DNA of 64,000 bases from NCBI GenBank assembly GCA_023078555.1, contig CM041202.1, positions 5,876,522 to 5,940,521 of the forward strand, in the 5' to 3' direction. The notes beneath the pieces were generated by a model that saw only the letters and a list, made by a program, of their open reading frames with translations, searched no databases and was not told the DNA's origin. Shown one piece after another: positions 2,782 to 63,640 of the stretch. How positions within the stretch are numbered: the stretch's first letter is position 1; every line of letters starts with the position of its first letter. Source of the stretch: Ulva prolifera. Lineage: Eukaryota > Chlorophyta > Ulvophyceae > Ulvales > Ulvaceae. The translations under genes and the position numbers were made by a program.

Positions 2782-5700
2782 TCAGCCAAGGGCGGCACTC
2801 ACAAGCTCCACACGGCGCGGCTTGTGCGCTGCGTGCTGCGCAAACCCGTCCATGCACACCCCGCCCAGCAGCGCTGCAGCGCATGTGCCCGCATCGCAGC
2901 ATGACATTCCGTTCTGTGCTGCCGGCCCCGCCACTGGCGCCGCCTCGCCCAGATCCATCGCCTTCGAACCGGCACGTTTGGTGCCAGCGTGGGCTTGCCA
3001 GTTGTTGCGCGCTGCGCTGCGACGCGATGCATTTCCAGCCGGCTGGCCAGCAGGCACATCCTCCGGCACCGGGAGGTTGTCGGAGCCGCCGCTGCAGAGC
3101 CCGTGCTGTGCGGGCTCTTCATCTTCCGGCAGCGGATCCGCAGCGCGGCTCATGATTGACGTCTGTGCGCTTGGAGGCTCGCAGCAGGAGGGGAAGGCCT
3201 GGTGCAATGACGTCAAGGGGCCACTGGGCATGGATGCAGACTCGCACATCCGATTTTCCCGCGGGAACGCTGGCAAGCAGCCTGGGGACGAGAGGCCGGG
3301 CGTCGCCATGAACCATGCGCTGTCCGTGCAGTGCGCCATGCTGTCCACATACGTAGTGCGGAGCATGCTGGTGGGCTGTGAAGTGTGCTGCGGCCCTTCG
3401 TCTGCCGACGGAACAACCGTCGAGCTGTCTTCGCGGAAGCGGGTGCCTTTGGACCGTGCAGACGGTGGAGGCTGGAAGAACGGCGTCTCAAACAACCTGT
3501 CAGTCTCGCCGTCACCACGCCATGACCGCACTCGCGCTGGAAGGTCTCCCATGCAAGGCACACATACATTCGCCATGGTGTCAACGGCGGTGAGGGACCC
3601 GTCGTGCGAAGGCAAGTGCACCTCCGGCCACTCCATGCTGTCACTGTGGAGCAGCACCGGTGGCGCACGGGGCAAAGCGAGCACGTCATGCGTGCACGCT
3701 TCCAGCCCCTGTGGCCACATCACGTCTCCCGGCGCCATGCCGGCCTGTGGCCCGATCGCTGGCTCGACCTGTGCAGGGAACAGCGCCAGCTTGGGGTGGG
3801 GGGGCATGCCCCAGCGCTGCAGCAGGCGCGTCGGGCAGAGGTGGCCGTGTGCCCAGAGGTCCTCCTGAAGCCACGCAAAGATGCATCGGGCCGTCACGGC
3901 CGGTGGCCGCGCAGCGGGGTCAGTGTCGGTCATCCACAGCAGCACAGTCAGGAGTGTTGGGTCGGAGGGGACCGCGTGCAGAGCAAGGTTGTCCACAATC
4001 TCACCCTGCACAGGGTGTGCCACCGTCAGGATCCCAAAATGCCACGCGACCACGAGCAATCAGGTGGCGCTTTCATGCACACATCTGTATCTGTCAGATG
4101 ATTTATGCACTCTTGCAACGCTCCCCATCTCCCCGGTCGTTGCACCACACAGCATGCAGATGGGAATAACGCATACATGCAGTGCTGGCGGCGCTGACAT
4201 GTACATGCAGACACACAGCAGCATGCACATCCCAATGCGCAAAGGTGGCTACGCACCTGCATCACCCAACGGCGCGTGTCCGCGCCCGGCAGCTGCCACG
4301 GGAACATCTTGACGCCGAGCAGCAGCAGCGTCACTCCGGCCGAGTAAACGTCTGCAGCCGGGGAGGCAGCGATGCGAGCCCCAGCGGCCGCGGCCCCCGC
4401 AACCTCCGGCGCCGTGTACGGCAGCGTGCCAACGATCGCTGCAGTGCCTCCGGCCAGCGGCTGTGCGATGCCACGGGCCGCCCCCGCATCGCCAAGCGCG
4501 ACGTCGTCATGGTTCCACACGCCGTCGATGGCTGCGGCGGCGGCTGCCCGGCGGAGGAAGAGGTTCTCAGGCTTCACATCGTTGTGCACGAGTCCCGCGG
4601 CCGCAAACGCGGCGATCGCGCTGCAAACCTGGACGCCGATGCGGAGACGGGAAGCTGCCCGTGCGGAGGGTGCGTAGTGGTGGGGGTCTGTTAGGGTTGG
4701 GCTGACGGACAGCACATCAAAGAGATCTCCACCTGAACAACGCTGATGGTCAGGCCTCCACTACAAGGCGCTCCCGATGCACCACTCGAAGGGCATGTCA
4801 TATGCAGGCACACATGCGATAGAAAGGAACAGTCTCCGGAACTCAGAATCAGCGGTTACACTCACGTTCTTGGGCAGCTGCCGGTTGAGAAATGAGGACT
4901 GTGAGGCGACAGCCCTCTCACACAAGGATACTTCAAGAAAAATGCAAGCGGGTGGCGAAGCACGACATGGGACGGGGGCGCACCACCGCAGTGCTCCATG
5001 AGAAGGCCAACCGGCAGCGTGAGGCCCTGCTCTGGCGGGGCGAACAAGCAACCGTGCAGCGCGGCGACATTGCCCTGACCTGAACCTCTCGCCACAGCGT
5101 CGGCGCGCGCCTCTGCGCCAGCGTGCCACAGGCTGTACGCCTCGTGGCTGAAGTGCACACCCGCATGCAGCCGCGCCTCATGGGATTCATGCATGCCAGA
5201 GATCTTCACGGCGGCTAGGCTGTCACCTAATCCACGCACTCCCGAAGTGAATACCTGCAGCGGCGCGTGCAAGATCAGCTGCCTGATGTCTGCAACTGTG
5301 CACTGCACCTAATCACAGTGAATTGGGATATACCTGGCCATCTATGCATAGAGCCATGTCAGCAGGATCTCCAACAGCCGGCATTTGCCCAATGTACGAT
5401 GGAAGCAACCGGGCATCTTGCCTTGGGCAAAGCATCGGCTACTCTACGACAAATGAAGAAAAACCCACATAAATCACCATTTACAGCGCGCTTGCCAAAG
5501 GCATGCAACCTGTCTTCTCTCAGCGTGTGTTTTTTGAAAAATGCATTTTGCATGGGGGATGTCGGATGGGGGGAGTTGATAACATCTACAGCTGTGTGAC
5601 CAGGCCAATGGCAGAGAGACTCCACAGCTGTGACGAAACAGGTCATGTGGGGCTATGTCATGACAGCAGCGGCACAGGAGCCCTTGGCTTGCTGCAACAT

Positions 5701-9480: not shown

Positions 9481-9860
9481 CGGTGCATGCCCCTTCCCCT
9501 GGCCTCGCTATTGCATATGCAACGTACGGGAACGTCCGCCCCCCGCTGCGTCCGCGTTCCGCAACAGGCCGGCAACGCGCAAGGATCATCCGCCGCTCCC
9601 AATGACTATTACTATTATGCATTCCGCAAGAGCACGAGGCATGTTCTTTCCACGACGCCCTTGCGTATGGTCGCCCGCCAAGTCCGCGCCGCGGTCCCGC
9701 TGATGACCTCGCCACGTGGACAAGGCAGTTTCCGGCGGGAGTCACGGTGCTGTCCGATGATCCCTCGCCGCTCACGGGCCATCCTCCCGGAGGGGTGTGC
9801 CGCAGCTCTCGGTCCACAGGGACCCGGCAGTACAGGTCGGCCATCGGCCTAGGCCGACGC

Positions 9861-15895: not shown

Positions 15896-15920
15896 CCGCC
15901 TCACCACCTTTGTCCTTGTA
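15896..15920 (+). mobile_element. Short TGTAA-ended insertion flanked by 13-bp direct repeat
   Basis: The insert ends CCTTTGTCCTTGTA. It is bracketed by ACACAATGTGTAA (15883-15895) and ACACAATTTGTAA (15921-15933), a 12 of 13 match. The 3' end is shared with inserts at 29028-29055, 39248-39295, 42756-42817, 42832-42908, 56398-56468 and 63009-63063. The flanking repeat suggests a target-site duplication from retroposition. Confidence 0.55.
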
Positions 15921-18607
15921 ACACAATTTGTAAGTTGGGCCTGCATCTCATCGGTTCCCGGGCACTCTCCTGTCTCCTGGTAGGCGTGCATGTCACACGT
16001 TGGACCTGTGGCCAGGATGGCTGCCCCCCTGTAGGTGTGGACCTGTTGCGTTGGAGCTGTCAAGTTACTGCACCTGTTGACATGCAACTGGTGCAGGCTA
16101 CCACAGGCTAGCTGCAGTGTCAAGGCATGCTGTCATGGTGTTACACGGTCATGGTGGGACAGCGCCTGAAGGTGTAAGGCATGCCTCCCTCCCCCGGGAT
16201 CAGCAGCCCCTGGATCAGCAGAAGCTTCACACTGGCACTGCTCCTAATTACAAAAGCGTAAACGGGAGAAGACAAATACAGCAAAAGAATCTCATCCGAA
16301 TCAATAGCAGCATACACACAATCACACTACAACCAGCACTGCTCCCATATCTGGAACACTTCTCAGTCACCCACAACCACAAGGTGTGTGCTGTCTGCCT
16401 AGGCAGTGCACAACACTGTGATGCTGGTGCCTGTAGCGCTACCTCAGATCAACCCAACCCACGTTTCAATGCATTTGCATCAGCCTCTAGCACAGCAACT
16501 CTCGCCACAGCTCTGCCAAACACACACAACCCACACGACCCATCCCAATTGAGTCAAGGACCCGCAAACGATGCAAACGACTCGCAGTCAATGCGCAGTC
16601 AACACACTGTAGTGTACGTGCCTGATGTACGTGCCTGATGGCAGACAGTCATACATGGAATACAAGACAGTTTACATATGCATGCTGGTATCTCTATCTG
16701 GATACACGTGTATCAAATTGGGAGCTGGCACACACATCTTGCAAACATGTTGTCCATCTCCATGACATTGCCATGATTGTGCACAAGTGTTATATCAGCA
16801 CAAGAGGTTCAAGGACAAGCACAAGAGTCAGCAACAGCAGGTAGCACCACAGCAGGCGCATCCAAGCCACATCAGTGATGTGACATCACAGATGCGTATG
16901 ATGTATCGTGTCACACTGTGTACGATACTGGAGGAATATCAGACTGTCCCCAGTGAGTGGCACAAGCTAGCCAGCCCGCCAAGACTTTGTGGCCAAGACT
17001 CGGCATGCACAGATCTAGCCCATCCGTCACGAACCCGTCAGCTCTTCCATAGCAGCATCCGTCACGTATCGGTCCAGTTACTCCGTGCTAGCTGCGCCAC
17101 GCGGCTTCCAGCTTGCCCTCGGTCCCGGCTCCCATTGATAGCCCGCGTTTTAGTCTGACTCAGGCTGCAGCGCCGAGGAGGTCTCCTATATAATTCCTTC
17201 GTCAGTATATCATGCCGTCGCGAAGTGCACCACGTGGTGGCGCGGCTATGCTTCCATTCGGAGTACTTGCTGTCAGCCGTCGCGGCAGAGCTCAGGCTCT
17301 CGGAGACGCACCACGAGGCCCCACGATGCTGATTCACTTCCGTCTGCGTCACAGGATTCTCCACGCACATGTCTCGCCGATGTCGTGAGAACCTGCCCGC
17401 GGCAAGGCGTCACCTAGGCTGCCAGTGCTCTGTTCTGCTGGCCTCGGCGGTAAGCTGCAGTGCTACTTGCCGCGCTTGCCCAGAGCAGCACGTCGCAGTG
17501 CGAGGGAGGTATTCGTGGGTGTGCTCTTCATTGCAGGGCCGTGGCAGGTCAACGGTGCGTTAATCCATCAACCACGCGCACACCAGTAGCTGCTCCGCAT
17601 GCATCAATTGATGCAGGCCCAGCTCTAGCTTGGTGGTCGGCCAGGCGTGCGCTGTGGGATTCGCCAGATCTCCTGATGGTGTAAGCACGTATCTCTCTGT
17701 GCTGTAAGCCGGTGCAGATTCCAAACGACAAGCAGCTGCACTGCATGCATACTCCGGGCCTGTGACATGCATCTCCGCATGCAGGGCGGTGGCTTTGGGG
17801 CGCCTGTGTTTGCTGCCGGTGGGCCCTGCAGTGCAGCTGCATCCGCCCCGGCATGTTGGATATATACCCGGCTGTCTCGCTGCAACAGACATCACTGGTC
17901 TCTCTCTGAAGGCAGCGAAGCGAGAGCGCGTCAGAAGCTGAAGCACCAAGGCATCAGCGATTTGATTCTCCAGCCTCGAGGTGTGCAGCCCATAGCTTCC
18001 TCACCATCCTTCGCAGGCGCATCTGTGCGGTGGCCGTCCGCACCCGGCCTGACCCAAACAGACATGCGTTCTTGTGTTGCGGATTAATGTTGGCTTGAGG
18101 GTGGAGGCTGTGGCAGGCCAGTGCTTCACAGTGTGTCGGCCAGTGCCACAGGAACAGCCATGCAGCTGCGGGCTCGTGTGCCGTCCGAGGCAGTCAGCTG
18201 CAGCGCTTTGCAACTCGTTGAGCCCACGAAAGGCTCCCTATTGGAAGATGTAGCGCAGGCTCAGCGCCTCGGGTTGTGCGCCGAACGCGGGGAGGCTTCC
18301 GACATGCTGGGCGTGCGCGTGCATGTCACTCCACGGTGTCCGGCGCCACGACGTCACCCAGTCGTTCACGCGATTTGACCTTGCTGCGGGTCCGTGCGAG
18401 CTACTAGATTGTGCTGCTGCTCCATGGAGATGCTCCCAGTGTCGTCGCGGAACCCCTAGGCGAGTTGGGATTTTGAAATTTCGGTGATCACCCGGTGTTC
18501 TTTTGAGCCCGTCTACCCCTCTGCGATAGAATCGTGCATTCGAAGAGCATACCTTGTTTCTTCTTTGGTCGCCCATTTGTCAGCTGTGCCTGGCACAGCC
18601 TGGGCTG

Positions 18608-18985: not shown

Positions 18986-19559
18986 TCAAACCAAATTACG
19001 GGGTCATTTGCATTACAGCATTTGCCAACTGATTATTGCACGAAGTCTAATCAATTCAAGAATGGGTGCGGCACAGCTCTGTGCGCATCTTTGTGCGCAT
19101 CTTTGAACTTGTACTTCGTAAAGTCGCTGTTCTTACAAGAGTCACATATCGTACAGTGCCACTGGTGAGAATTGTTGACCACGCCTTCGTTTTTGTCTTC
19201 TCCCGTTCACTAATTTGTGATCGTACTTCGTATTCCACCCATGGAAACTCAAGCTGGCGTGCGTGCACTTTGGTATCAGACAACCTTTACCGAACGACAG
19301 AGCCATCCGCAGCTACTCTTTTCGAACAACTGGCTTCGTTCCTGTCTTTGTCAGCTGCTGATGAAGCATTATCATGATTATCATGATCAGCTGTGCGCTT
19401 GGGCACTCGGCCGGTAAACCCGAAGTTATGCAAGGTCATTCTCGCAACACTCAAGCAACAGGTAACACCGATGTCAGCAATAGTTCATTCCGTTTAGTGT
19501 TCTTCTGGCCGGACCAGGCCCGACAAGCTGTCGGGACTCCCGAGTCTTGACCAGGCCCG

Positions 19560-28639: not shown

Positions 28640-31600
28640 AGCGGCGCTTGCTGGCCGCGTGGATTGCAGGTGGAGCTGGGTGGTGGGTGTGGGCGAGGGT
28701 GGTGTACTGGCGTTTGTTTTTTTTCTACACATTCCTTTCTAGCCTGGGCAATTGTGCTTTTTCGCGACAGGTATGAAATGCCACAGAGGATCTCGGGTGC
28801 ACTGTGTTGTGCATCACGCCGCTGCAGCCGCTGCAGCACAGGCGGGGGGTGTGGATGGGTGTATACAACAGCAGCTTACGTATCAGCACCGTCCTTGAAA
28901 CTCTGGTGATGTCGTCCGTGTCCATGCACGCAACAGCAGTTTCCACTGACTGTCACGCATCTTCTCTCTCAGCAAGGCCAACATTCGCTGCAGTCATGGG
29001 CTCTTGTGTGGGTGCACAGAGGCCTTGTGCCGCCTTGCTGCCTTTGTCCTTGTAACACAGTGGCCATGCTGCTGTGATACATAGCAGCTAGCGTGCGTGA
29101 CAACATTTTGGGTTCAAAGGCTGGCAAAACAGCAGTCACATCCGCAGGTTGTTGCTGCTGCTGCTGTGTACTGTTGTGTGTGCATGATGTTTTGATGCCG
29201 TGTACATTCTGTGAACATCATCTGCTCTCGGCCCACTTGGCTTGGGATGGTGAATACAGTTGTTCCGTGAATACATATGGTGAACTTCATATACAACCAT
29301 GGTGGTTGTGCCATGAGTATGGAGTGCACTCGACCACCAGCTCAGACACTACATCAGCAGCACTACCATCTGCTGCGTTGCGTCGAGTCAGCAACAGATG
29401 TTTCACAGGCATCCTGATGCCGCAGTGATACGAGGTAGGCTTCGCCTTGTGGTGGGGCGTTGTCTTTTTGTAGGCAAAGCCTAGGCAGCGGGAGGACGAG
29501 CCTCGCTCTGGGACAAAAAACTTCAGAGACCTGTGCCATCAGTTTGACTTGAAGGCATCATGTCAAACAAGCTGAACAAATGTTTGCCACATCTCAACAA
29601 GTAGCTGAGGTACATCTGCATGCACTGCAGGCATCTGGACGTCAGTCTGATGCACAGTTGACGTCCATCACACAGTTGATGTCTGGGCGACATTTGCCAC
29701 TGCCTACCACTAAGGATGGCCTTCTTGCCGGGTAGCCTGTGACCTTAAAGCTCTAGAGGCTTGTTGAATAAGCCTGATGTCAGCGGATTGCAGCACCGAT
29801 AGTTGGCACGTTGCAGTCGGTCGTGTCGTGGAGTGTGACCGCCATCTACATCACGGCACAGCTGGGGCAAGTAGATCCACATGAGCACGTCGATTGCGTC
29901 CATACTGCTTCTTTGCTGGTGCTGTTTGAAATCTCGTTCTGTGGCTCCCGCTTCCCCGGTGGACCTGCTCTGGAACTGGCAATGGCACTGGCATGTGCTA
30001 CTGGGAGGATGCCTTATCACAACACTGTCCCTAGTAAGCTGCAGTCCTCAGCCACGCCATCACAATCAGCCTCACGCGTTCAGCAAAATTTAAATTATGG
30101 GCCGGCGGTGAATGTGCTGCTTCCGGCGAGGTTCTATCTCTTGGCATGGGCTGCCATAGCTTCTCCAGACTGTCTCCGTGTGCCAAAAGTATCGGCGATC
30201 ATTGGCTAAAAACAGAGACAGGCACACAAAACTGTGAAACAAACAGGTTGGCCAAGGGGTATGCACCTTGAGCGATGCTCCGACTTGCTACAGTCGAAGC
30301 GGGCAATACCGAGACCGAGACAGAGCGGGTCAGGTAGCATGATTATGCGGGGCGCCTGAAATCTCCCCGGGTGACTTATCGGTATAGCATTGTGCTGTGA
30401 ATGCAACGGCATCAGCGGCCCACATACGAGGGGGACGTCTACACAAAGCAACCTTGCCGTGAACGAGCCTCTTCAGTATTATGAAGCCGCCCAGCTTCAG
30501 TTGTAAAGCTTGATTATGCCATCTCTGCTGCAGGCGTGTGTACGTGCCGTGGTATCTCGAGACATGCTGTAGCAGGTCTTGCAATCGCAAGGCACCACCC
30601 CACTCCGCGTCCACTGAAGGCAATTAGCAGCACGCTGTAACTCCAGGCTGTCTTCCAGCGCCGCCACAATTGCAAGTTAAATCTTCTGTGCGTTGCACTA
30701 CCCACGATCGTTGTAGTCTAGCATCATCCTCAAGACGCATGCAGTTGACACCAGGCAGTCCATCAAACCACAACGTGGTTGTAAGCACAACTTGATACCT
30801 GGCGCACTGAACATCAGATATCGATTGCAAGCTCACTACTCAGCAGAAACGATCTGGTAGACGATGGGGCTCGATGGCGTGCCTTTGCGAGACGCCACCG
30901 AGCATCTCCGAGACAGCCCTGCCTCCCAGGTTCACTCGATGGCAGCAGTCCATGTGACACGCATCATTCAACTCATGCAAGTCACTGCACAGGTGGCGCA
31001 TCTACTACTGGCGTCTGCCGGAGACCCGGCCCATCACATTTCGACTCTTCGACTCGACTCGTATCGGTAACAGACTGGATTGCCAGGTCCGTTGTGCACT
31101 CTTAGGCATCCTGGCCGGCTCTACGATACGCCAGAATAAAGCATCGCTGCTTCACGAAACGGTAACGCATTGCGACACGTGGCGGTACGAGACCTCCGAC
31201 TGCTAGTTCGCTGTCACTCTCGGAGCACGCACATTCCACCTGGGCTCACCACCTCACCAGTCTCTCTTGCAATGCGACGGTTCGCCTTCGAACACACGTG
31301 GTGTGCCAGCGTGTTTCGGTGTGATGCGACGGTGTCGCACCATTTCCATGTTGCCCAACGAGGATCATGGACACTGCATGTGATGCGGTGCATTCGGCTG
31401 ATCCAGGCCGGATGGACCGGCGACAAGTCGCCGGTGTGGGGGGCTGCCAGCACTGCTGAACGTGAGCGGGGTGGCCCCTGGGGCCGTCTACCTGATAGGC
31501 GGCCTCATGTCTGATGAGCATGGCCCTGCATGCCATCGGCCTGCCGCCAAGAAGTCTGCTGGCCAGGGAGCTGCAGCAATGGCGGAGCAGAGAGGTTCCG

Positions 31601-38429: not shown

Positions 38430-39457
38430 GCTGCGCGCGTCCGCCCGGCACCATACCTCCATTGGTGTGTGCTGGGCATGACGCCAAGACTGACGCAGCT
38501 GCTGGCGGAGCGCCGGTGCTGTGCCAGCGTCGTGGCTGTGTGTAGTGCCGGGGATCTTGTGTACGGGTGGAGGAGTTGAGTTCAGATCGGTGGGGTGCTG
38601 TTGTGTGCATAGCGGTGAGCCGTGTGAGTGTTGAGTACTGTTGACCGGAGGCCGCTGGACCGTGATGTTGATGTAATGTCGTCCGTTGACGTGGTGAACA
38701 TGCGGCTGAACGGGTCGCCCAGGTTTGCACACACCCCGAACAGTGCAGCACCGCCCACCGAGTTCAGGGGCACGCATGCATGATCTGCCAGTGCATTTGT
38801 TCCATCACGGCAGCCTGCAGGTAATGAGCCCACATGTCACACACCGACAGATGGCCGGACCAACCAGCCCTGACAGCGGTCAGTGCAGACAAGGCCGGAC
38901 GCTCCTCAAAGCCGCAACACTGCCCAAAGCTGCAGGCAGGGATGGAGCTGCCACGCCATACTGCGTGAGTGGTGCATCTGCCTTGTTCAACAGACAGATT
39001 TGGGATGGAGGTCCACCCATTCGGCGATGTATAATCCAGTATCAAGGCGATGTTCATGCACGTTACAAGAACTGGGATGTTTTGACAAAGTCGCACATGT
39101 ACCGCACCGTATGCCACACCCACACGCAGTCACCATGGCGGCCGAGCAGCATTCCGCAGGCGGCTGATACAAATTCGGCGCACACATAACCGACCACCCC
39201 GCCACATTCGGAATGCATCAACACACAGCGCCACACTATCCCCCAGCAGTGTGCCCTGGCGGTGCTACCGGCCTGTCCAACTTTGTCCGTGTGACACAAT
39301 CCCCAAGCGATCTCACACGTACCACTTTGCTGCATGCTCTTCGAGCCTTGTTCACGCTCGAGAGGCATACTAGCACACGCGTCTCTAGAGAAGACACATC
39401 CAGCAAAAACTGCTCAGGGCCTCGAGAGGCACTGGGAGATGCCGCCAAACGCGTCCC
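38430..39457. other. Convergent intergenic region between membrane-protein and S1 genes
   Basis: The two genes converge on this 1-kb region, so it should hold both 3' ends. A TGTAA lies at 38670-38674, about 240 bases after the membrane-protein stop. The region contains the TGTAA-family insertion at 39248-39295. I see no further gene. Confidence 0.5.
39248..39295 (+). mobile_element. Short insertion of the TGTAA family, flanked by direct repeat
   Basis: The insert ends CTTTGTCCGTGTGAC, a mutated form of the family end. It is bracketed by ACTATCCCCCAGC (39235-39247) and ACAATCCCCAAGC (39296-39308), an 11 of 13 match. Confidence 0.45.
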
Positions 39458-41742: not shown

Positions 41743-42755
41743 CTGCACAAGACGCCGAAAAGCAAATTCATGTGTGCAGTCGGGCTCGTCCGTGCGGAGC
41801 AAAGCGACATGCACGCAATACCGCAGAGCCACTGAGCCGTAGCGAGATCTATTCAGTCAATAAGCGCAAATCGGCATATTTGCTACGGCACACCTAGATT
41901 GTGCCTGCCGAGCTGGCAGCGTCGCAGATGTCGCCACGCTGTAAGCGAGCGCCCCGTTCCAACTTTCATCACCCCCGTGGCCATGTAAATTACTCAGATT
42001 TCAATACTGTATACGGGAAATACCGCAAGGCCATAAATGCATCATGTGTGCTGTGAGTACGGCACGGCAGTCAGGTTGGTTGTGAACGCCGAACGCAGAT
42101 TTACCAGCTCCTCACTTCAAAGCGCACGGCGACTACTGGATAAGTTCAGTTCCATTGCTAGTGCCTATTCTTTGTTTCAGTGGGAGACAAGGACGACCTT
42201 CGCGTGTGTTCTGCGCTGAACGCTGCCAATGTGCCCTCAAGACCCTGGTGGCCATGCAGAGCTGTGCCTCTTCCGCGAAGCCTGTGCAACGCAGCTATCT
42301 CTGAGATATGCGCTCAAAACCAAGCCGGGATGAGAAATAATACTCGGCAATAGAGCTCAGACACAAGTGACAATCACAAAGTCATATAATGTGACCTCAC
42401 GCAGACTGGACATGCTGTTCACGAAGCAGAATTGTACACGTGCAAGAGCTTGAAGACCAACTCTTGCGTGTCGCATCAGACCTGCATATGCCTGCAACAG
42501 TAATGATACCCCACCTATAGGGCGACTCGACTGCCTTGTGTCTATGAATGACAACCCACCTAATCATCTGCAAGCTCTGCTAGTGAACACTGCATTGCAA
42601 CATCCATGAAATAGCAGCTCAATGGACCCCAGTCACTAGATCCTGCATAAACTCTGCCTCTGGACATGGCACATGCGGTGCGCACCAACGCCACCCCATG
42701 TTGAGATTTGCAGCAGACATCCTGAGCACTGTAATCATGCATACCTACATACTGC

Positions 42756-42817
42756 GTGAGCGGATTTGCGTGTGTATTCCTGGCAACGGCTCGCTGCCCG
42801 GCCTCTGTCCTTTGTCA
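42756..42817 (+). mobile_element. 62-bp TGTAA-family insertion, first of two in series
   Basis: It contains GCGTGTGTATTCCTGGCAAC, then GGCTCGCTGCCCGGCCTC, then TGTCCTTTGTCA. The perfect 11-bp repeat CTACATACTGC brackets it at 42745-42755 and 42818-42828. Confidence 0.65.
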
Positions 42818-42831
42818 CTACATACTGCAGT

Positions 42832-42908
42832 GCACTGACCTGGTGAATGAGTGGATTTGCGTGTGAGTTCCTAGCAATGGCTCGATGCCCGGCCTCTGTC
42901 CTTTGTAA
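42832..42908 (+). mobile_element. TGTAA-family insertion, second of two in series
   Basis: It is about 85% identical to the copy at 42756-42817 and ends GGCCTCTGTCCTTTGTAA. It is bracketed by a perfect 14-bp repeat CTACATACTGCAGT (42818-42831 and 42909-42922). The same target was therefore used twice, leaving three copies of CTACATACTGC. Confidence 0.65.
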
Positions 42909-44068
42909 CTACATACTGCAGTCATGACCAGTCATGAGTCTCTGTCATAGAGTCTATGATCTCGAGCGCATGATGTACAAAAACAGCAGCAGGAACCCAG
43001 CACCAGTGCCGCATAGTTACTCTGTGTGCGATTATTCACTGTCCGCTGCCTGAGCATCAATGCTGCCTGCGGTGTTACCCGCCTCGCGGCCTGTCTGCTT
43101 CCTACAGATCTGTCTTCGAAGTGCTGTGCGATTCCTCTACAGCTGGAACTGCGCGTCCAGCGTTACAACGTACACAGATTGGGGAGAGGTAAAACGCGAT
43201 CCAGGAGTCGAGATCTCTTTCTAGAAAGACAAAACACCCCACCATACACTAGCAGCTCTCTGCATGTAACCTGGAGACAGGAAAGGATTCATACGGCATG
43301 GCGGTGCCTATTCCAGCACAGACTCCAGCCAATGGCTCGATATACACTGTTGCCTCATTCCAGCTTCAGATTGACCCTGCACCAATCACAGCATGGTCAT
43401 CTCAACAAATCTGTCTCATCTCGTCGCAACCTTCGCTTCCACATCCAGAGCGAATCCAACGCATGCGTGCGCCGCATCGGCTAGCGCCCCTGGAAGTGTT
43501 CCACGCTGCCCATGCACCCGGCCTGGACCAGACCATGTGACGCGAGGATGCTCTTACCAGCTGAAGAAAGCTGCCACTGCCACGCTGACGGCTCTGACCG
43601 CTGGTGCAGCCACATGCATGCCTCATCACCTCGCCTCCGTTCAGACACCCGGCCACAGCACAGGTGCCGTGCCCAGTTGATGCCGTGCCTGCAGCCACCG
43701 CCACCGACGTCCGTTGGCAAACGGCCTGTCACATGGGAATAAAAGTAATACCACGGTATATGCGGATCGGCCTGGCCCCTGGAATGTGCCAACACATCGC
43801 CCTCAGATGCAGCCAAGCCCTGGTTTCATGCGCGCCACCAACACCATGCCCGCCCCATCTGTGTACGAAGTTTCCATGCCACTGAACAATGTCATCCAGT
43901 CCGTTCCTACTCAGAAGCATCATCCAGCTCCCATGCTACGCCGGCGCAGCGCATGCTCCCACCCCCTGCCAAACAACACGCCCAGTCCTGCCGAACCGCA
44001 ATCTCTCCCGAGTCCAGCGCCGCCACGCCATCGCCACCGCCAGAGCCGACCGTCATGTGCGCAGGCGC

Positions 44069-55690: not shown

Positions 55691-57043
55691 TTACAGGCCT
55701 CGGGGGCGGCGGGAGCGGGGGCCGTCCTGCAATACAATAACACGAGTCAGCATCAGCCTCGCCTAATGATCTTGGATCTTGTTTTGAGGAACAGGAGGAC
55801 ACAGACTTCCATGGCAGAACTGCAGAACTGGATCACAAGCCACAGGCCAGCACACTATGGCCACAATGAAGCAGCATTGCCACCAACCACTCCAGCACAA
55901 CCTCCACGAATCATCAATCATGAAGATCTACGAAGCAATCGATTGGCAACAGGTCCTAGGAGACACAAAATGAAACGGGAGTATGAGGGGGAAGCGCACA
56001 GATGGGCGGCCACGGCGGGTGCCGCGGGTGCCGCGGTCACGAGGGGGGTCTTCAGGGCGGGGGTCGCGCACGCCACGGGGGTCACGGGAGTCGACACGCA
56101 CGCGGTCATCGTCCTCAGGGCGGGGGTCGCGGGGGCCACGGGGGTCGCGCATACGCTCCTCCTCCTCGCCGTAGCCGTAGCCCATCTCCTCCTCGCCGTA
56201 CATGCCGTCGTCTGCATACACCACGAAGGCTATGAATAAGATGTATATGTGGGGGAGATGGGAATGAGCATTGTTGTTCCCTGACGAAGACACCGAAGGA
56301 GTTTGTGCAGAACCGCCAGGGACGATCACCGAGTCAGCAGGACGGCAAGTGTTGGTGGCAACATGAGATATGTCGGTCTTGGTATGCACACCCACACTCT
56401 GGGTGTGTGCTTGCTCTGCTTGATTCCTTCGCGGTGCTGCCCGCCCTGGTACCTTTATCCTTGTAACACACACCGACACACAGAGAGTACGTACTCTGTA
56501 CACTGGAAGCACACGCACAGGAGAGGGGGGAGGGGGGGGGCTCACCACGCTCACGAGGGGGGTCCTCAGGGCGGGGGTCGCGGGGGCCGCGGGGGCCACG
56601 AGGGTCGCGGGGGTCGCGGGGGTCGCGCACGCCGCGGACACCACGCTCGCCACGCTCACGGGGAGGCAGGTCGCGCACACGTCCGGGGTCCTGCGCACGT
56701 GTCCACAAGGGTGTGAGATGAAATGGTGCAGTACTTCATCAGAGGAGATGCACGGCTCATAGGCTTTACTCGCGGGCATGTAGGAGTAAGAATTACACAG
56801 GATCTTCCATGTGCAAATTGTTGAATTGGCAAGGTGCACTGACATAAGCCGGACATCAGCTTTCCGCTGATGAAACAGAATATAATGTCACCATATTCCA
56901 ACGACGTGGAGCTGGAGGGGGTGAGGGCGCACGGTGGGGCGGCCTCCGCGAGGGCGGCGCATACGACCATCGCGGGCGTCAGCGCCGGAGGCGATGGCCA
57001 GAGAGGCCACAGCAGCGAAGAGGATAGACTTGAAGGAAACCAT
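55691..57043 (-). CDS. Small secreted protein of Arg-Asp-Pro repeats (4 exons, 167 aa)
   Basis: Exons: 57043-56933, 56690-56546, 56211-56000 and 55726-55691. Phases 0, 1, 0 fit, and the acceptors are GCGCAG, ATGCAG and TTGCAG. The N-terminus MVSFKSILFAAVASLAIASG followed by ADA is a clear signal peptide. The mature protein begins with a basic stretch (RDGRMRRPRGGRPT) and then consists mostly of units such as RDPRGPRDPRPED and RDPRGVRDPRPEDPPR. One acidic Tyr/Gly insert (MYGEEEMGYGYGEEEE) lies in the middle, and the end is basic (GPRSRRPRGL). It has no Cys after the signal peptide. I know no family with this composition. Charge-rich repeats on a secreted protein could bind polyanions, mineral or wall polymers (speculation). 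Donors of exons 1 and 3 are GTGCGC; if exon 3 instead reads through, the protein ends 22 codons later at an in-frame stop at 55928. Confidence 0.68.
56398..56468 (+). mobile_element. TGTAA-family insertion within intron 2 of the RDP-repeat gene
   Basis: It ends CCTTTATCCTTGTAAC. CACACCCACAC (56387-56397) and CACACCGACAC (56469-56479) bracket it, a 10 of 11 match. It lies in the intron between exons 56690-56546 and 56211-56000, in antisense orientation to the gene. Confidence 0.45.
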
Positions 57044-59771
57044 ACCTACATAACAGAGGAACCATGAAGGTCGGCCTGTGAGCTCAGGACGAGACCTTGC
57101 CCGCCCCTCGATGGGCAGATGGGGGGATATGGAGAATACATAATCTCAACTTAAGTTACACATATCGGGCCATTGTATGGCAAAGCAAACAAATACACCA
57201 AGTCAAAGAGCAACCGGCTTCCACAATAGCAACAACAAAATCTCATCACAGCAAAAGATATGGAGAATGGGTCCACAATGGTCAGGTTACCTAGACTGAT
57301 CTGATCTCTCAGATCAACAGTTGGATTGAGTGGTGTGAATCAGTGCCCAATTTTTTTTGCAGGACTCAGTCATGGCAGCAGTGTGTATGTGACACCTGCC
57401 TATCTGCCTGTTGCTCCTGTCCGCTGAAGCTGGGGAGGTAGGAGCTGGGATCCTGGACAGGAATAACTAATCACACAGAACAGGACCTCCTGGTGGCTTC
57501 CAGATGGCCCTGGACGTAGTTGTGGTACTCAGGGCTGGGCTCAGCGACATGCATGCCAGGACAGCACCGTGTTATTATTAGTACACCGCACAGTCATGCT
57601 TGCGGCAGAATTCGAGGCTAACGATAAGCCGCCGCATCTGATCCTGCGGAAGTGCCACCACCTGTGGCACAACGCTAGGCAGTGGTTCCAAGCCAGGGCT
57701 ACGGCACAGACAGCCTCTATATGGCACGAGTCGGTGCAGTATGCATTCGCGGTTCAAGCTGCGCAGTGATTGACGAAGAACAGCTCAAGCGAAGATGCGA
57801 GGGGGTGGCGCGTGGAGATCGTCAGGGCAGCGTAGGCGCGTCATGAGCATGACCCTCGACTGCACGGGGGTATAGTTCTCGGGCGTCAAGCCGTGGATTC
57901 GGATGCATGCAGATGCACCCTCCAACGACAGAAATGCTGAACAGATCTGCATTCACTGGGATGAGATGCAGACGTGATGGGGCCGAGCTGAATGGGTGGA
58001 CATAGAGCGATTCGCGGAGTTGGCGTGGCTTCACACGAGGCGTGATGTGCACCTCAGTGCATGACATGCGTCAAATCATGCATGGCGGGAGATCTCGACT
58101 CGGCGTAGGCGGCGCGTGGAAGTTGTACACGTGGCGGAGGGGGACTCATGCACAACGCATCACGGAATTTGGACAGCGCCTTCTGATGGACAAGGAACCC
58201 TCCCTGCCACGCGGGGCTCCTCGCGGAGGCCCTGGAACTGAACACTGTGAGAGCCTGACTTGGGACCTGGACAGAGGCATCATCACAGTTGTGTTGAGCA
58301 CTACTTCTCCGCAGAACCTGCAGCGTTCGGGAGCGCGTGCGACCGTCGTTGATGCACAGCATGATGCTGACCGAGCTGATCGCGGTAATTGGAACCCAAC
58401 AACGACCAACCGATGCTGAGCAGTCCCTGATAAATCCTTGAATCATTCTGTGCGACTTGTGACGGGCTCGAGACCCCGCCGTGCTGTAGTGCCGCACCAA
58501 GGGCAGAGGAAATCGGTTACCTAACCGCGTGCGCAGCTGAACGCACGACCGTGCATCGCGCGATTTCAACAGCAGAGCGGGAAGCGCTGAGCGCTCGACA
58601 AAGAACACACAAGCAAGACATTTGTTCTGCGCGTTGACCTGGGGACGAAGCAGTTGAGACTGCTAGGATAGACCAGAGCATGAGCTTGCAATTGCGGCAG
58701 GCGTTCTGTTCGCACCTGTGGGAATTCTTCAAAGGAGAAGGAGAGATGCAGGCAGCGATAAATTAAATTGACGGGATGGACAGACCTGCTGGCTGCGGCT
58801 GCTTAAGTACTAAAAGCTTGGCCAAGAAGCTCCCAAGCGCCGGCATCCGAATGTGTAAAGATTCGCTCGTGCCGGTGTCCACAGGGACCTTTCAGCTTCA
58901 TGCATGTGCGGTGATGTCACCAAGATATCGTGCTGTATTGTCTCGGGGACGGCATTTAGCCGTGCCCACTGCCATCGTTTCGTTCGACCTTGGACCGCAT
59001 GCCAACGAGGCTGGCACGCATGCATTACAAACTGTCAACTCTGCACACACAACATGTGCTCTACGGCGCTCGGACACCCAAGGCACGCGCGTCTCGTGCG
59101 TTGGCGAAATACTGCGCGAGCCGGCCGTGCACACCAGCCGTGTTCATCACCCTTTACGTCAACCGCCATACAGGTGCGGCCATGATGTAACCTGGTGGCA
59201 CTACGTACTTGTGCACCGCGCAGCAAACACACATAAACATTGCGACACGATGCCGCTAAAGGTAAACAACTGCACCGTAAGATATGCAGATGTAGATCCT
59301 CGGCGGGCTCGGGCATGCACGTACGTAGGCGAACAGTAGTCGCGCCAGACACGCATACATTCGAATTCAAAGGCATGCGGCTGCCATGGCTCGACAGGTG
59401 CGCACGCGCGGCATGAAGCAGCGGCAATTTATGGTCCTCCAGCACAGAATGCGTAGTGCGGACGCCTTGACACGCAGCTGCTGCGATGCCTCCGTATACG
59501 CTCGTTTCGCGAGCGCGGGTGTACGCGTTCTTTGCAGCGAGCTGTGGGGACGTGGACGGAGCAAGGTTGGAGCACCGTTCACGCCGGCGTGACCACCGCG
59601 GCATACCGGTCAGTCAGGCTGCGCCCACATGGGGTAACAACGCATTGACATGTTTGCAGGTGTGCCGCATCCGTCCCGTTGCGCCGTGGTGTTGACGCCT
59701 GCTATGCCCTGCGGATGCGCATGCGCTTGCGCTGTGCACAGCCGCGAGCTAGCTATAGCACCATCAGCTCT

Positions 59772-59791
59772 TCCGTTCATTCTTTTGTAAA
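59772..59791 (+). mobile_element. 20-bp insertion ending TTTTGTAAA with 9-bp direct repeats
   Basis: The insert TCCGTTCATTCTTTTGTAAA is bracketed by ATCAGCTCT at 59763-59771 and 59792-59800. It is the shortest member of subfamily D. Confidence 0.55.
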
Positions 59792-59941
59792 ATCAGCTCT
59801 AGATCTCTCCTGAGATAGCTGGGGATTCAGCTTCATACTGCACACGACATCCCCAGACTCCGCTTGGGGGCGCAGTCTTCGTGGATCGGGTAAAGGTGGC
59901 GTGTGTGCTGCGGGTTCGAGGATGAGTGTGAAGCCGCTTCG

Positions 59942-59980
59942 GTTTCAGTGTTTCTTTTCTCCCGTTCACTCTTTTGTAAA
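59942..59980 (+). mobile_element. 39-bp insertion ending TTTTGTAAA with 16-bp direct repeats
   Basis: The insert ends TCTCCCGTTCACTCTTTTGT then AAA. GTGTGAAGCCGCTTCG brackets it perfectly at 59926-59941 and 59981-59996. Confidence 0.65.
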
Positions 59981-61553
59981 GTGTGAAGCCGCTTCGTATC
60001 TCAGAGATATGATCATGACATACCCGACGACTTGCAATTGTGTCCCCTCAGCTGTGCACCCGAGAGTTAGCTATAGTATTCGCCTGTACACGTGTCTGCA
60101 GAATCGACAAGCAAGTGTATCGCTGCTACTTACTCCGTTCTGCAGTGCCTGCGCCTGTCATCAAGTTGTACGGCTGCGCCAGCTTCTGCGCTCGGTCAAA
60201 GCCCCAACTCCCGGGTGCGGTGCCGCGGCCATGCAAGCACTTGCTTGCGCCAGAGTCATGGCTCAAGCATACTTGCTGTGCACATGTATGCGGATTTAGA
60301 TTGCTCTGCAGATCTGGGATCAGCTGAACTCAGGTGCATGTCTCTGGTACAACATCCGAGCGCTTCGATCGACCGCTTCCAGCGCAAATTTAAACAGTAG
60401 CTTCTGGATGGTGAGGATCGGCCCTTTTGCAGCGCCCGTGGCAGCTGCGAGAGCTGAGGGGCAGCACGCTGCAGCATGACCTTTGCATGAATTACATAAG
60501 TATGCACACACGTGTGGCACCCGTACCGGCGAGATGAAGGTCCAGGCCAGATTGTACGAACGTTCGTTGTGCGGTGTCAGAAGTGGCCGAGTTGTGAATC
60601 CGATAGGCGCTTAAGTATGCTTGTGTGAGAACAATTTTGCTTCTCGACGTATCGCATCGGCGTGACGCAGCATTATTGCGGTCATCGAACCCGCCGCATC
60701 ATGCAATGCTTTGCGGAATATGCGCTCGGCAGCAACGACATGCCAGCATCCACTCGACTCCATCTCACGTGAGCGCAACACCTGCCGAAAATGTATGCAT
60801 GCTTCCACGCAATGCGTTTTCCCTGCGCGCATCGCATGCGTATCGTGCAATGTCGCCTCGAGGCTCCTACGCTGTTCGACGCTACCCCGGACCCATTTGA
60901 AGCGTCACATGGATTGGCGGGCGGCATCATCAAAGCTGCGCAAAGGCATGTCATGCTGTGGCATCGTTGTATCGAGGCCACCTCGTACAACCGGCCTGCC
61001 GGTGTCCTGCTGAGACATGTTAGCTGGCGGGCATACGCTGCGTGTGCACCAGCGTCGAGATCGATGTGTGTCGTGGGTATATACATAACCTGCGAGGACT
61101 GCTGCGGTGAGGGATGATCGGCATCCCGTATGGGTGCTTCGCAGCAGGACATCTTCGTGTCAGTCGGAAGGCATCCCTAGGCCTCCGGATCCGGAGATGC
61201 GGGATGTGGCTCTCCGGGTGGCGCCTACTTGGAGGCGGCATGCATGGACGGCCCCGATGGTCAGGCGAGGCATCGCGATTCCAAAGCCTCCAATCGCGCA
61301 ATCGATATCGCCTACCTCACATCGCGATGCATCCCCAGTGGATTCACCCACTCAGCACACCTGCAGGCCAACACCAGGCGGCCCTTGGGCTGCGCTGGGT
61401 CCAAGCTTGGACCCTTAAGGTAACGGTCGCGCAGGGGATTCGGACATCGATTCTGCGCAGATCTATACCCGAGCTGTATTGGATGTCCGTTCCGTGGCCT
61501 TACTCCGAACAGCGGGCTCAGGCTGAACTACAGCGTCTATGGATACGTATGGT

Positions 61554-61605
61554 CTCTCGCCGCCGCGCTTGCAGATGTATACATCTGCAAGCGCGGCGGC
61601 GAGAG
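61554..61605. repeat. 52-bp perfect palindrome
   Basis: Two 26-base arms meet with no spacer at 61579/61580, the centre being GCAGATGTA|TACATCTGC. The outer parts are CTCTCGCCGCCGCGC. Two more pairs match beyond a single mismatch. Confidence 0.95.
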
Positions 61606-62433
61606 GCCTTCGCCAGTGCTCCCAGGCCGTGCGCAGCCTGCTGCCGAGTTCGAGCCGTGCAGGTCATTCAACGCTCCAGGGCGACGCTTCACACGGCTTT
61701 CTGATAGCTCCCTTGAAAGCTTGCCGCCGGCACATGCAGTTCCTTCCAACAGCGCCCGCGTGCGACGACAGTGCCGGCATCTTTTCTTGGCACTGCACCG
61801 GCGAACCATCATTTGTATTATTTATGCAAGCTTCCAGTGGATGTGAATCGGGCGCGCGTTGGCCAGAAGGATGCAGCCTAGACTGATCGCCTGGTCTCAA
61901 GTATCTCAACGATACAGCGCCGTTATGCATGTGATCATGATCAACGAGCCCGTGGCATCGTTGCCACGAGGAGGACACCGGCGCGCCGCGGCGCGCGTGG
62001 AATGGGTTATGGTGACATGTCATAACAGCTGCAGAATTCCGTGTGAATAGTCGAGCAGTTTCAGGCCACATACATGACATCGTCGGCTCCGAATACCTGT
62101 GGCGCGCCGCCAGATCTGCCTCGCGAGGCGTCGACATTGATGCATCCACAGAGCTTGTAATACAAGCCTTGTATGCATGCATGAAAGGTGCAGAAGCCGT
62201 TGAAGACTTTCCGCGGCGCCGGTCACCGGCAACCGGCACCACATCACCACCCAGGACGCATCCATGCTTGGATCCACACCGTGGCGTGATCTGATAACGA
62301 TGCCGTCAACGTTGGTATTGGCTTTGGTGCACGCTACGTACACGCTACTATAGTAGCCGTGGGTGGGCTGGTGGTTGTGTTTGGTGCTCGCTGCTAGCCG
62401 TGGGTGGGCTATGGCGCGGTTGTAGTGTGATTG

Positions 62434-62498
62434 CTGATCCGGATGAGATTCGGTTTTGGTGTTTGCAATTGTCTTCTCTCGTTCACTGTTTTGTAAAC
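62434..62498 (+). mobile_element. 65-bp insertion ending TTTTGTAAAC with 10-bp direct repeats
   Basis: AGTGTGATTG brackets it at 62424-62433 and 62499-62508. It shares GATGAGATTC, GGTGTTTG and TCTTCTCTCGTTCACT with the neighbouring copy at about 62531-62590, where AGATCTTTTGTAACGTCA is itself duplicated (62573-62590 and 62594-62611). Confidence 0.6.
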
Positions 62499-62782
62499 AG
62501 TGTGATTGTGTGTAAGTTGCTGTTGTTTCGAATGAGATTCTTTGGTGGTGTTTGTCTTCTCCCGTGTACTCTAGATCTTTTGTAACGTCAAGAAGATCTT
62601 TTGTAACGTCACTGTTGCACCCCAGCCATATATGGCTATAGCACAGCAGCACACTCCAGCCATAGCGCACACGCACCGCGCTCGCTACGGTGTTAGATCT
62701 GCAGTCTCGCGGGGCAAGGCCGAGATGTCCGGCAGCGGGCGGCATGCATGCAGCGGGCGGCATGCACCATATATATATATAT

Positions 62783-62852
62783 CCGTGCTCATGCGCGGGA
62801 TGCTTACGGCACCATATATATGGTGCCGTAAGCATCCCGCGCATGAGCACGG
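62783..62852. repeat. 70-bp perfect palindrome with AT-rich centre
   Basis: The two 35-base arms start CCGTGCTCATGCGCGGGATG and run to the centre ACCATAT|ATATGGT at 62817/62818 with no mismatch. An (AT)n tract abuts the left side. Confidence 0.95.
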
Positions 62853-63008
62853 GCTGCACAACAAGGATGCGGGGTACGTACGTGGGACGTCGACGGTCCT
62901 GTGTGGAAAACCCAATGATAACAAGGACGCAGACGGAAGGCAGGTAGCACAGCAGAGACCGCGAGCAGAGCTCATGATTGATCATGAACAACGCCGTGTG
63001 TACATGTA

Positions 63009-63063
63009 GTTACAAAGGACAGAGGCCGGGAAGCGAGCCGTTGCCAGGAATACACACGCTTAT
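63009..63063 (-). mobile_element. 55-bp TGTAA-family insertion, inverted, with perfect 20-bp direct repeats
   Basis: Read on the minus strand it is nearly identical to 42756-42817: GTGTGTATTCCTGGCAACGG, then CTCGCTTCCCGGCCTCTGTC, then CTTTGTAAC. CAACGCCGTGTGTACATGTA occurs on both sides, at 62989-63008 and 63064-63083, without mismatch. This is the clearest case of insertion with target duplication in the window. Confidence 0.75.
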
Positions 63064-63527
63064 CAACGCCGTGTGTACATGTACACGTGCGCATATGCAT
63101 GTACATACTAGAGGGGTGGGGCTGGGGGTTCCGTTCGTGCGCTTGGCCGATATATAGGGCCCTATACATGATTAATGCGGGGCACGATCGTTTTGGGCCG
63201 CCCCGGGAGGCCCCTCCGCAAGATGAGCTCATGCGCCGCCGCCCCTGCGGTGAGGGTTCCTGCCGGCCTTATACAAATGTTTCAAGGATCCTCCATCGAC
63301 AAGTTGGGAGAACCCGATAGCCCCACATGCATGAATCGCCCGCGTACCATAAGAACAGGCCGGGGACCCAGACGTGCATGCTGCAGCCGTCACTCCGCAA
63401 ATCACACCTCCTAGACACGGCAGTGCGGCAACACCACTTGCGCACACTGGCACCTTCACGAAACCACTGCGCGCACTCGGCACGCACCCACACGTGTGCA
63501 CGCATTCATGGTGCACCCCACCACCTG

Positions 63528-63640
63528 CGGCACATGCCCCAGGAACCCCACCGGGCACAAACATTTGCATGTATTTTGGTGCAGTGCACCAAAATACGTT
63601 TCAATGTTTGTGCACGGTGGCAGGGAGTGCCAAGCCCCAT
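63528..63640. repeat. Imperfect palindrome of about 110 bp
   Basis: The core arms GTATTTTGGTGCA and TGCACCAAAATAC flank a single G at 63584. The match continues outward with mismatches (CCACCG-GCACAAACATT against its reverse complement). As a result the two strands give similar translations here. Confidence 0.8.

Follow-up and report, generated by a model that had tools for sequence, protein, structure and literature searches.

The short segments bracketed by direct repeats in a 64,000-nucleotide stretch of Ulva prolifera DNA (hereafter, the window) are best explained as dead-on-arrival, 5'-truncated copies of the retrotransposons LINE-A, LINE-C and, less certainly, LINE-B, together with a non-autonomous element of about 908 bp, termed NA, all left by target-primed reverse transcription that aborted early, and we give this reading a probability of roughly 0.87. 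Most of the segments are real insertions, and they do not form an independent class of micro-retroposons; being LINE tails, they are ordinary in kind, and it is in their length and their stacking that they are unusual in degree.

All ten segments of the original prediction lie where it had placed them. The six flanking repeats described as perfect were confirmed, and equally high scores were reached at fractions of 0, 0.0007, 0.003, 0.009, 0.013 and 0.02 of 1500 random window positions (0-2%). The four imperfect repeats also occur, but they are individually weak, as 0.013-0.064 of 1500 random positions scored equally. When TTGTAA sites with 8 or more pyrimidines among the 12 bases upstream, a cut-off taken from the description in that prediction, were compared with the other TTGTAA sites in the window, a repeat scoring at least 9 was found at 7 of 12 and at 0 of 16, respectively. 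BLAST (E ≤ 2e-4) identified six of the ten segments as LINE or NA tails, namely those starting at 63009, 42832, 42756, 62434, 59942 and 39248; the reversed window, used as a control, gave four weak matches, none of them at a 3' tail. The segments had been taken for a single family; instead, they fall into at least three (LINE-A/NA, LINE-C and LINE-B-like).

The segment at 63009-63063 (minus strand) is a 5'-truncated LINE-A 3' tail of 55 bp, matched by BLAST at 93% over 58 bp, and its 20-bp duplication occupies 62989-63008 and 63064-63083, with a score that none of the 1500 random positions attained. A second LINE-A tail, of 62 bp, was found on the plus strand at 42756-42817 (98.5% over 65 bp, BLAST), between the two copies of the duplication CTACATACTGC at 42745-42755 and 42818-42828. 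Stacked on this preceding copy is a 77-bp NA tail at 42832-42908 (plus strand; 97.5% over 79 bp, BLAST), flanked by CTACATACTGCAGT at 42818-42831 and 42909-42922.

The LINE-C tail at 62434-62498 (plus strand, 65 bp, BLAST) sits within an older LINE-C tail of the same strand (62413-62572), which it splits into two parts still detected by BLAST at 62413-62431 (E = 0.008) and 62499-62572; its duplication, AGTGTGATTG, lies at 62424-62433 and 62499-62508. When the flanks were joined minus one copy of this duplication, they aligned better than the filled site with four of the four uninterrupted paralogues tried, with joined/filled scores of 103/86, 101/89, 98/89 and 90/82, the comparators being paralogues and not empty alleles. 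Another LINE-C tail, of 39 bp, was detected at 59942-59980 (plus strand; 88% over 42 bp, BLAST), and the score of its 16-bp duplication (59926-59941 and 59981-59996) was reached by 0.07% of random positions. The segment at 59772-59791 (plus strand) is a probable LINE-C 3' end, since 18 of its 20 bases agreed by eye; at 20 bp it is below the length usable in BLAST, which gave no match, and for its 9-bp duplication ATCAGCTCT (59763-59771 and 59792-59800) a score as high was seen at 2% of random positions. Two further LINE-C matches were absent from the original list, a 3' tail at 16248-16339 (minus strand; 84.7% over 98 bp, BLAST), with a candidate 12-bp duplication containing one mismatch, and a 3'-end fragment at 19186-19218 (plus strand; 84.8% over 33 bp, BLAST). 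Overall, the LINE-A and NA tails of the window matched at 93-98%, and the LINE-C tails at 83-88%.

The remaining features, all on the plus strand, are LINE-B-like or possibly so. A diverged 3' end was found at 39248-39295 (85% over 34 bp, E = 1.6e-4, BLAST), with an imperfect duplication whose score 2% of random positions attained, and a fragment at 9649-9803 resembled positions 871-1023 of a 1573-bp stretch terminating with the 3' end of LINE-B (73.5% over 155 bp). The CA-flanked segments at 15896-15920, 29028-29055 and 56398-56468 are possible LINE-B-like ends; the first has an imperfect duplication (12/13) scoring at a level reached by 1.3% of random positions, the corresponding values for the others are 6.4% and 3.1%, and BLAST against the LINE and NA tails gave no match for any of the three. 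Separately, three long palindromes or hairpins were observed in the window within 2.1 kb of one another, at 62783-62852, 63548-63620 and 61551-61608 (arms of 38, 36 and 29 nt, 100, 86 and 97% complementary), and two 110-bp direct repeats with 70% identity stand 514 bp apart at 56031-56140 and 56545-56654.

A full-length LINE sharing the 3' end, which the original prediction had proposed to look for, was found in LINE-A. It was discovered because longer copies of the tail extend upstream into an open reading frame (ORF), and its unit of about 4.2 kb encodes a protein of 1197 aa. One locus (L071, 1-9101) contains two units head to tail, 4191 bp apart, each with an open 1197-aa ORF. The reverse transcriptase (RT) was recognized by Pfam (RVT_1, E = 1.9e-10), and among solved structures the ORF product was closest to R2 proteins (best E = 6.7e-6). 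For its last 487 aa, in the version from locus L069, 91 matches were listed in the genome (88 of 1675 candidates scored), most of which covered nearly the full query with 90-100% identity and without stops; the family therefore looks young, and LINE-A has probably been active recently. Among the matches listed, several further same-strand pairs were spaced 4.0-4.3 kb apart.

The LINE-C parent was traced from one long copy (L142), and a protein search of the genome revealed that the family is large, its open frames reaching about 1200 aa. The last domain of its ORF is homologous to those of LINE-A (BLASTP, E = 7e-16) and LINE-B (E = 1e-14), and LINE-A and LINE-B match each other behind the RT (E = 1e-14, LINE-A residues 698-919). 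The link between tail and ORF was analyzed with 40 of about 150 listed protein places, comprising all 13 on contig 1 and others that were partly hand-picked. A tail exactly 165 bp past the end of a LINE-C ORF was found for 4 of the 47 contig 1 tails among the 100 LINE-C tails listed, and the control gave 0; a second set of tails (40 of 42 places), which unlike contig 1 was partly hand-picked, gave 7 of 40 at an ORF end and 1 in the control. In L142, a 5S rRNA match (RF00001, 56.7 bits) at 931-1048 on the minus strand, upstream of the LINE-C copy, is probably a neighbouring gene, and a LINE-C/5S chimera appears less likely, as a T run and other DNA stand between the 5S gene and the ORF. The detection of an RT rests on LINE-A, and the LINE-B ORF as read is without the RT part. 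Insertion of LINE-B at CA repeats was seen in few copies only, one of them (L095) preceded by a long (CA)n run. LINE-A, LINE-C and LINE-B are related LINEs, LINE-B being less certain as a source of segments. At another locus (L093, about 1300-3060), we observed a GC-rich repeat array whose three forward frames are all open and in which an Ala/Gly-rich motif recurs.

The extent of truncation was determined in 40 LINE-A copies from contig 1, on which all 100 listed ends lie, by taking alternate entries among the first 80; copies shorter than 22 bp are absent from this sample because it rests on exact 22-base ends. By gapped alignment, 12 of the 40 were no longer than 60 bp, 17 no longer than 80 bp and 20 no longer than 120 bp, and 10 filled the entire fetched stretch of 472 bp and ran beyond it; three (L103, L124 and L134) aligned at only 77-81%. 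The constant 3' end and variable 5' end that had been predicted were thus borne out within LINE-A/NA, with break points scattered and short copies colinear with the LINE or NA up to the break.

The flanks of these copies were analyzed against a mismatched control, in which upstream and downstream flanks from different copies were combined (1560 pairs). Repeat scores of at least 7, 9, 11 and 13 were obtained in 17, 15, 12 and 7 of the 40 copies, and the mismatched flanks gave expectations per 40 of 8.5, 4.1, 1.4 and 0.7, respectively. The shared target motif therefore explains about half of the weakest class (8.5 of 17), and the case for duplication relies on scores of at least 11, where 12 were found against 1.4 expected. 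The long flanking repeats are true target-site duplications, and the predicted origin by 5'-truncated retroposition stands beyond chance. The other 23 copies had no duplication scoring at least 7, and a looser search of LINE-A ends found several without one.

The six bases that follow TTTGTAA in the 40 sampled copies were C (38), T (38), A (39), C (38), A (38) and T (36), and LINE-A lands at CTACATAC. In 5 of the 17 copies with a repeat score of at least 7 (L098, L107, L111, L112 and L128), the upstream copy of the duplication starts with TGCAT and the downstream copy with TACAT; for this reason, LINE-A is taken to end in TTTGTAACTA, its probable true end as judged from these junctions, with a duplication that would begin at CAT. 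A search with PF14529 for an APE nuclease in the LINEs of this genome led to a different element, LINE-T (L136, 222-4946), which has a 1574-aa ORF with an APE endonuclease and an RT, and a 3' end of the form TGTAATCATG(CATA)n. For 6 of the 40 LINE-A copies, a match to this end immediately precedes the copy or is found at most about 80 bp away (one at 80% identity), and LINE-T tails are therefore taken as one landing pad.

Copies of LINE-A are strongly oriented with respect to each other. Among the 100 listed ends of contig 1, 25 of the 26 pairs of neighbours less than 1 kb apart shared a strand, and the remaining pair did not. The fetched loci held 26 distinct close pairs with units of 40-176 bp, the length of 44 bp occurring three times and those of 72, 99 and 172 bp twice each, and the second copy was LINE-type in 18 and NA-type in 8. 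In two pairs (L021 and L029), the spacer contained a further copy. At least 10 bases were common after both ends in 13 of the 26 pairs, and fewer in the other 13. If head-to-tail copies had arisen by tandem duplication of single insertions, through slippage or unequal crossing-over, equal units followed by the same bases would be accounted for; the L027 array has two successive 172-bp units whose ends are both followed by the same 40 or more bases, which may be a local duplication, and the 13 pairs with fewer than 10 common bases are beyond the support of insertion at a restored site. Nevertheless, unit lengths vary and both copy types are found in second place, the successive inserts scored in L024 measured 60, 286, 940, 200 and 155 bp, and duplications also flank sampled copies outside close pairs. 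This mixture of copy types and lengths favours repeated insertion at a restored site, making tandem duplication an unlikely general origin of the arrays; the stacking probably comes from a landing site that is restored.

Beyond this, we tentatively suggest, at somewhat less than even odds, that LINE-A is a self-reseeding builder of minisatellites, with a share of its arrays seeded at the (CATA)n tail of the unrelated LINE-T. An aborted insertion would duplicate CTACATAC, and the retained TTTGTAAC-TACATAC junction would be hit again on the same strand, so that retrotransposition, without unequal crossing-over, would make tandem arrays of 40-176 bp units, and LINE-A would parasitise a landing pad left by another retroelement.

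The NA element was present in many of the 30 fetched loci, which, like a second batch of loci, had been selected for their long matches, so that longer copies are over-represented. It has its last ~60 bp in common with LINE-A, the two ends being 93% identical over 70 bases, eight of which are flank, and partners mobilised in trans therefore probably exist. An element of this kind is also what would be expected if the short tails formed a separate SINE-like family that had a promoter of its own and merely an end in common with the LINEs. However, the scattered starts of short copies, colinear with the LINE or NA, argue against such a family, and no tRNA was found by a tRNA search in four NA-holding loci (L033, L016, L011 and L026), nor any Rfam match in L033 or L071, so that we consider it very improbable. 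With respect to the features of a SINE, a head derived from tRNA, 5S or 7SL RNA and a short length, NA showed neither, as no head was found in the loci searched and its length is about 908 bp. According to the sections of PMC3747384 drawn on here, Chlamydomonas SINEX shares its 3' end with RandI/Dualen or L1 LINEs, and the 3' repeats listed for algal L1 elements are (CATA)n and (CA)n, those for algal RTEX elements (CTTGTAA)n and (CA)n. NA is similar to SINEX in being a non-autonomous element with the 3' end of a LINE, and differs from it in its length and in the tRNA result for the four loci.

The tails of all the families end in TTTGTAA. The genome-wide pattern search for YYYYYTTTGTAAC that had been proposed returned 404 places (192 + 212) in the 88.9-Mb genome, against 52 (28 + 24) for the backwards pattern. 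Whole-genome searches with the family ends found 1079 LINE-A tails (531 + 548; 22-base end, at most one mismatch), 1743 LINE-C tails (879 + 864; at most three mismatches) and 317 LINE-B tails (151 + 166; at most three mismatches), and each reversed control gave 0. The original prediction had suggested that the inserts, ending at the TGTAA poly(A) signal, may be copies of RNA 3' ends that lost the A tail; in this reading, 3' ends of assorted host mRNAs would have been copied into DNA. UGUAA is indeed given as the poly(A) signal of derived chlorophytes in the part of PMC1868727 relied on, and it stands at the ends of the tails; yet the sequence upstream is not assorted, the 22-base LINE-A end recurring at its 1079 places, a LINE-C end at 1743 and a LINE-B end at 317, and the proposal is contradicted for the LINE-A and LINE-C tails (the segments at 15896, 29028 and 56398 are not covered by this argument), which leaves it with hardly any probability. 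For the same families, the idea of a self-standing family of micro-retroposons has to be given up, as both the LINE-A/NA tails and those of LINE-C run colinear with the 3' ends of ORF-bearing LINEs. Chance repeats around a common pyrimidine-rich motif would suit the four imperfect repeats, each within 1-6% of random positions, and the many short matches that the target motif alone produces in mismatched flanks, but they are contradicted for the perfect repeats, by the empty reversed-pattern controls (0 against 317-1743), by the repeats found at 7 of the 12 pyrimidine-rich TTGTAA sites and at none of the 16 others, and by the excess at scores of at least 11, and can practically be dismissed.

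Target-primed reverse transcription is the mechanism that probably gave rise to the shared ends, the colinearity of ORF and 3' end, the truncation, the duplications, the target consensus and the strand bias observed here. The LINE protein would nick its target, CTACATAC for LINE-A and CA repeats for LINE-B, and reverse transcription would be primed at one defined position, where the RNA ends in TTTGTAA. Synthesis of cDNA would very often stop after only 20-120 nt, and the second strand would be made across staggered nicks, so that about 9-22 bp become duplicated. In the case of LINE-A, this duplication would restore the CTACATAC landing site, so that later copies could hit the same spot on the same strand and build head-to-tail micro-arrays.

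The least certain part of this mechanism is the nuclease. Pfam found no APE domain in LINE-A (E ≤ 1), and the ORF may instead carry a putative restriction-like endonuclease (RLE) of the PD-(D/E)XK type, as judged from its C-terminal domain, in which a three-sequence alignment of LINE-A, LINE-B and LINE-C showed invariant GDI, DV, KR and E columns. The C-terminus of LINE-C gave a sub-threshold match to the restriction-endonuclease family PF18741 (E = 0.041), the three-sequence C-terminal profile had no R2 match among solved chains, and structure models of the domain from three-sequence alignments were of low confidence (pLDDT 50.9 and 46.6). An N-terminal zinc finger (zf-C2H2) scored below the Pfam cut-off in LINE-A (E = 0.52), and a Cys-His motif, CECG..H..C, was read in the ORF by eye.

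With its single ORF and an RT in the middle, LINE-A resembles the RLE group (R2, NeSL, R4, HERO and Utopia), the likeness being less certain for the N-terminal zinc finger, the C-terminal Cys-His motif and the nuclease; a preference for a short or microsatellite target, a precise 3' end and a variable 5' end are also found in this group. In the portions of PMC4640811 considered, Utopia is described with one ORF containing N-terminal zinc fingers, an RT, and a C-terminal zinc finger with an RLE, reptile Utopia makes 20-bp duplications, and HERO and Togen families are microsatellite-specific, whereas the CTACATAC target and copies of 20-120 bp are not described in those portions. For Blattella germanica, 5'-truncated R2 copies have been explained by a first strand left unfinished during target-primed reverse transcription (PMC7650587, in the part cited here). 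LINE-A is similar in its truncated copies, for which we propose the same explanation, but its copies are dispersed and stacked at CTACATAC, while R2 occupies one rDNA site.

Nested arrays of 3' ends are the feature that LINE-A has in common with Zepp. Zepp is an element of the APE type; LINE-A differs from it in the Pfam result for this domain and in its end, TTTGTAAC, which is not poly(A). Zepp is placed among L1 elements in the relevant part of PMC8226300, where, citing Higashiyama 1997, nested insertion with frequent 5' truncation is said to produce tandem arrays mostly of 3' ends. The original statement that nothing of the kind had been described was thus too strong, as nested LINE 3'-end arrays are known for Zepp from that part of PMC8226300. 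Searches of open-access PMC, with queries that did not contain the motif, found no LINE targeted to CTACATAC and no algal LINE tails of 20-60 bp.

The points of interest are the shortness of the copies and a landing site that each insertion would restore. For annotators, inserts of 20-80 bp between direct repeats can be LINE tails. Read in this manner, short repeats become a record of aborted retrotransposition, in which a single genome holds about 3100 tail ends and cDNA synthesis probably stopped in many cases before passing ~100 nt, and this alga offers a clear case for asking whether LINEs build minisatellites by insertion at a self-restored site.
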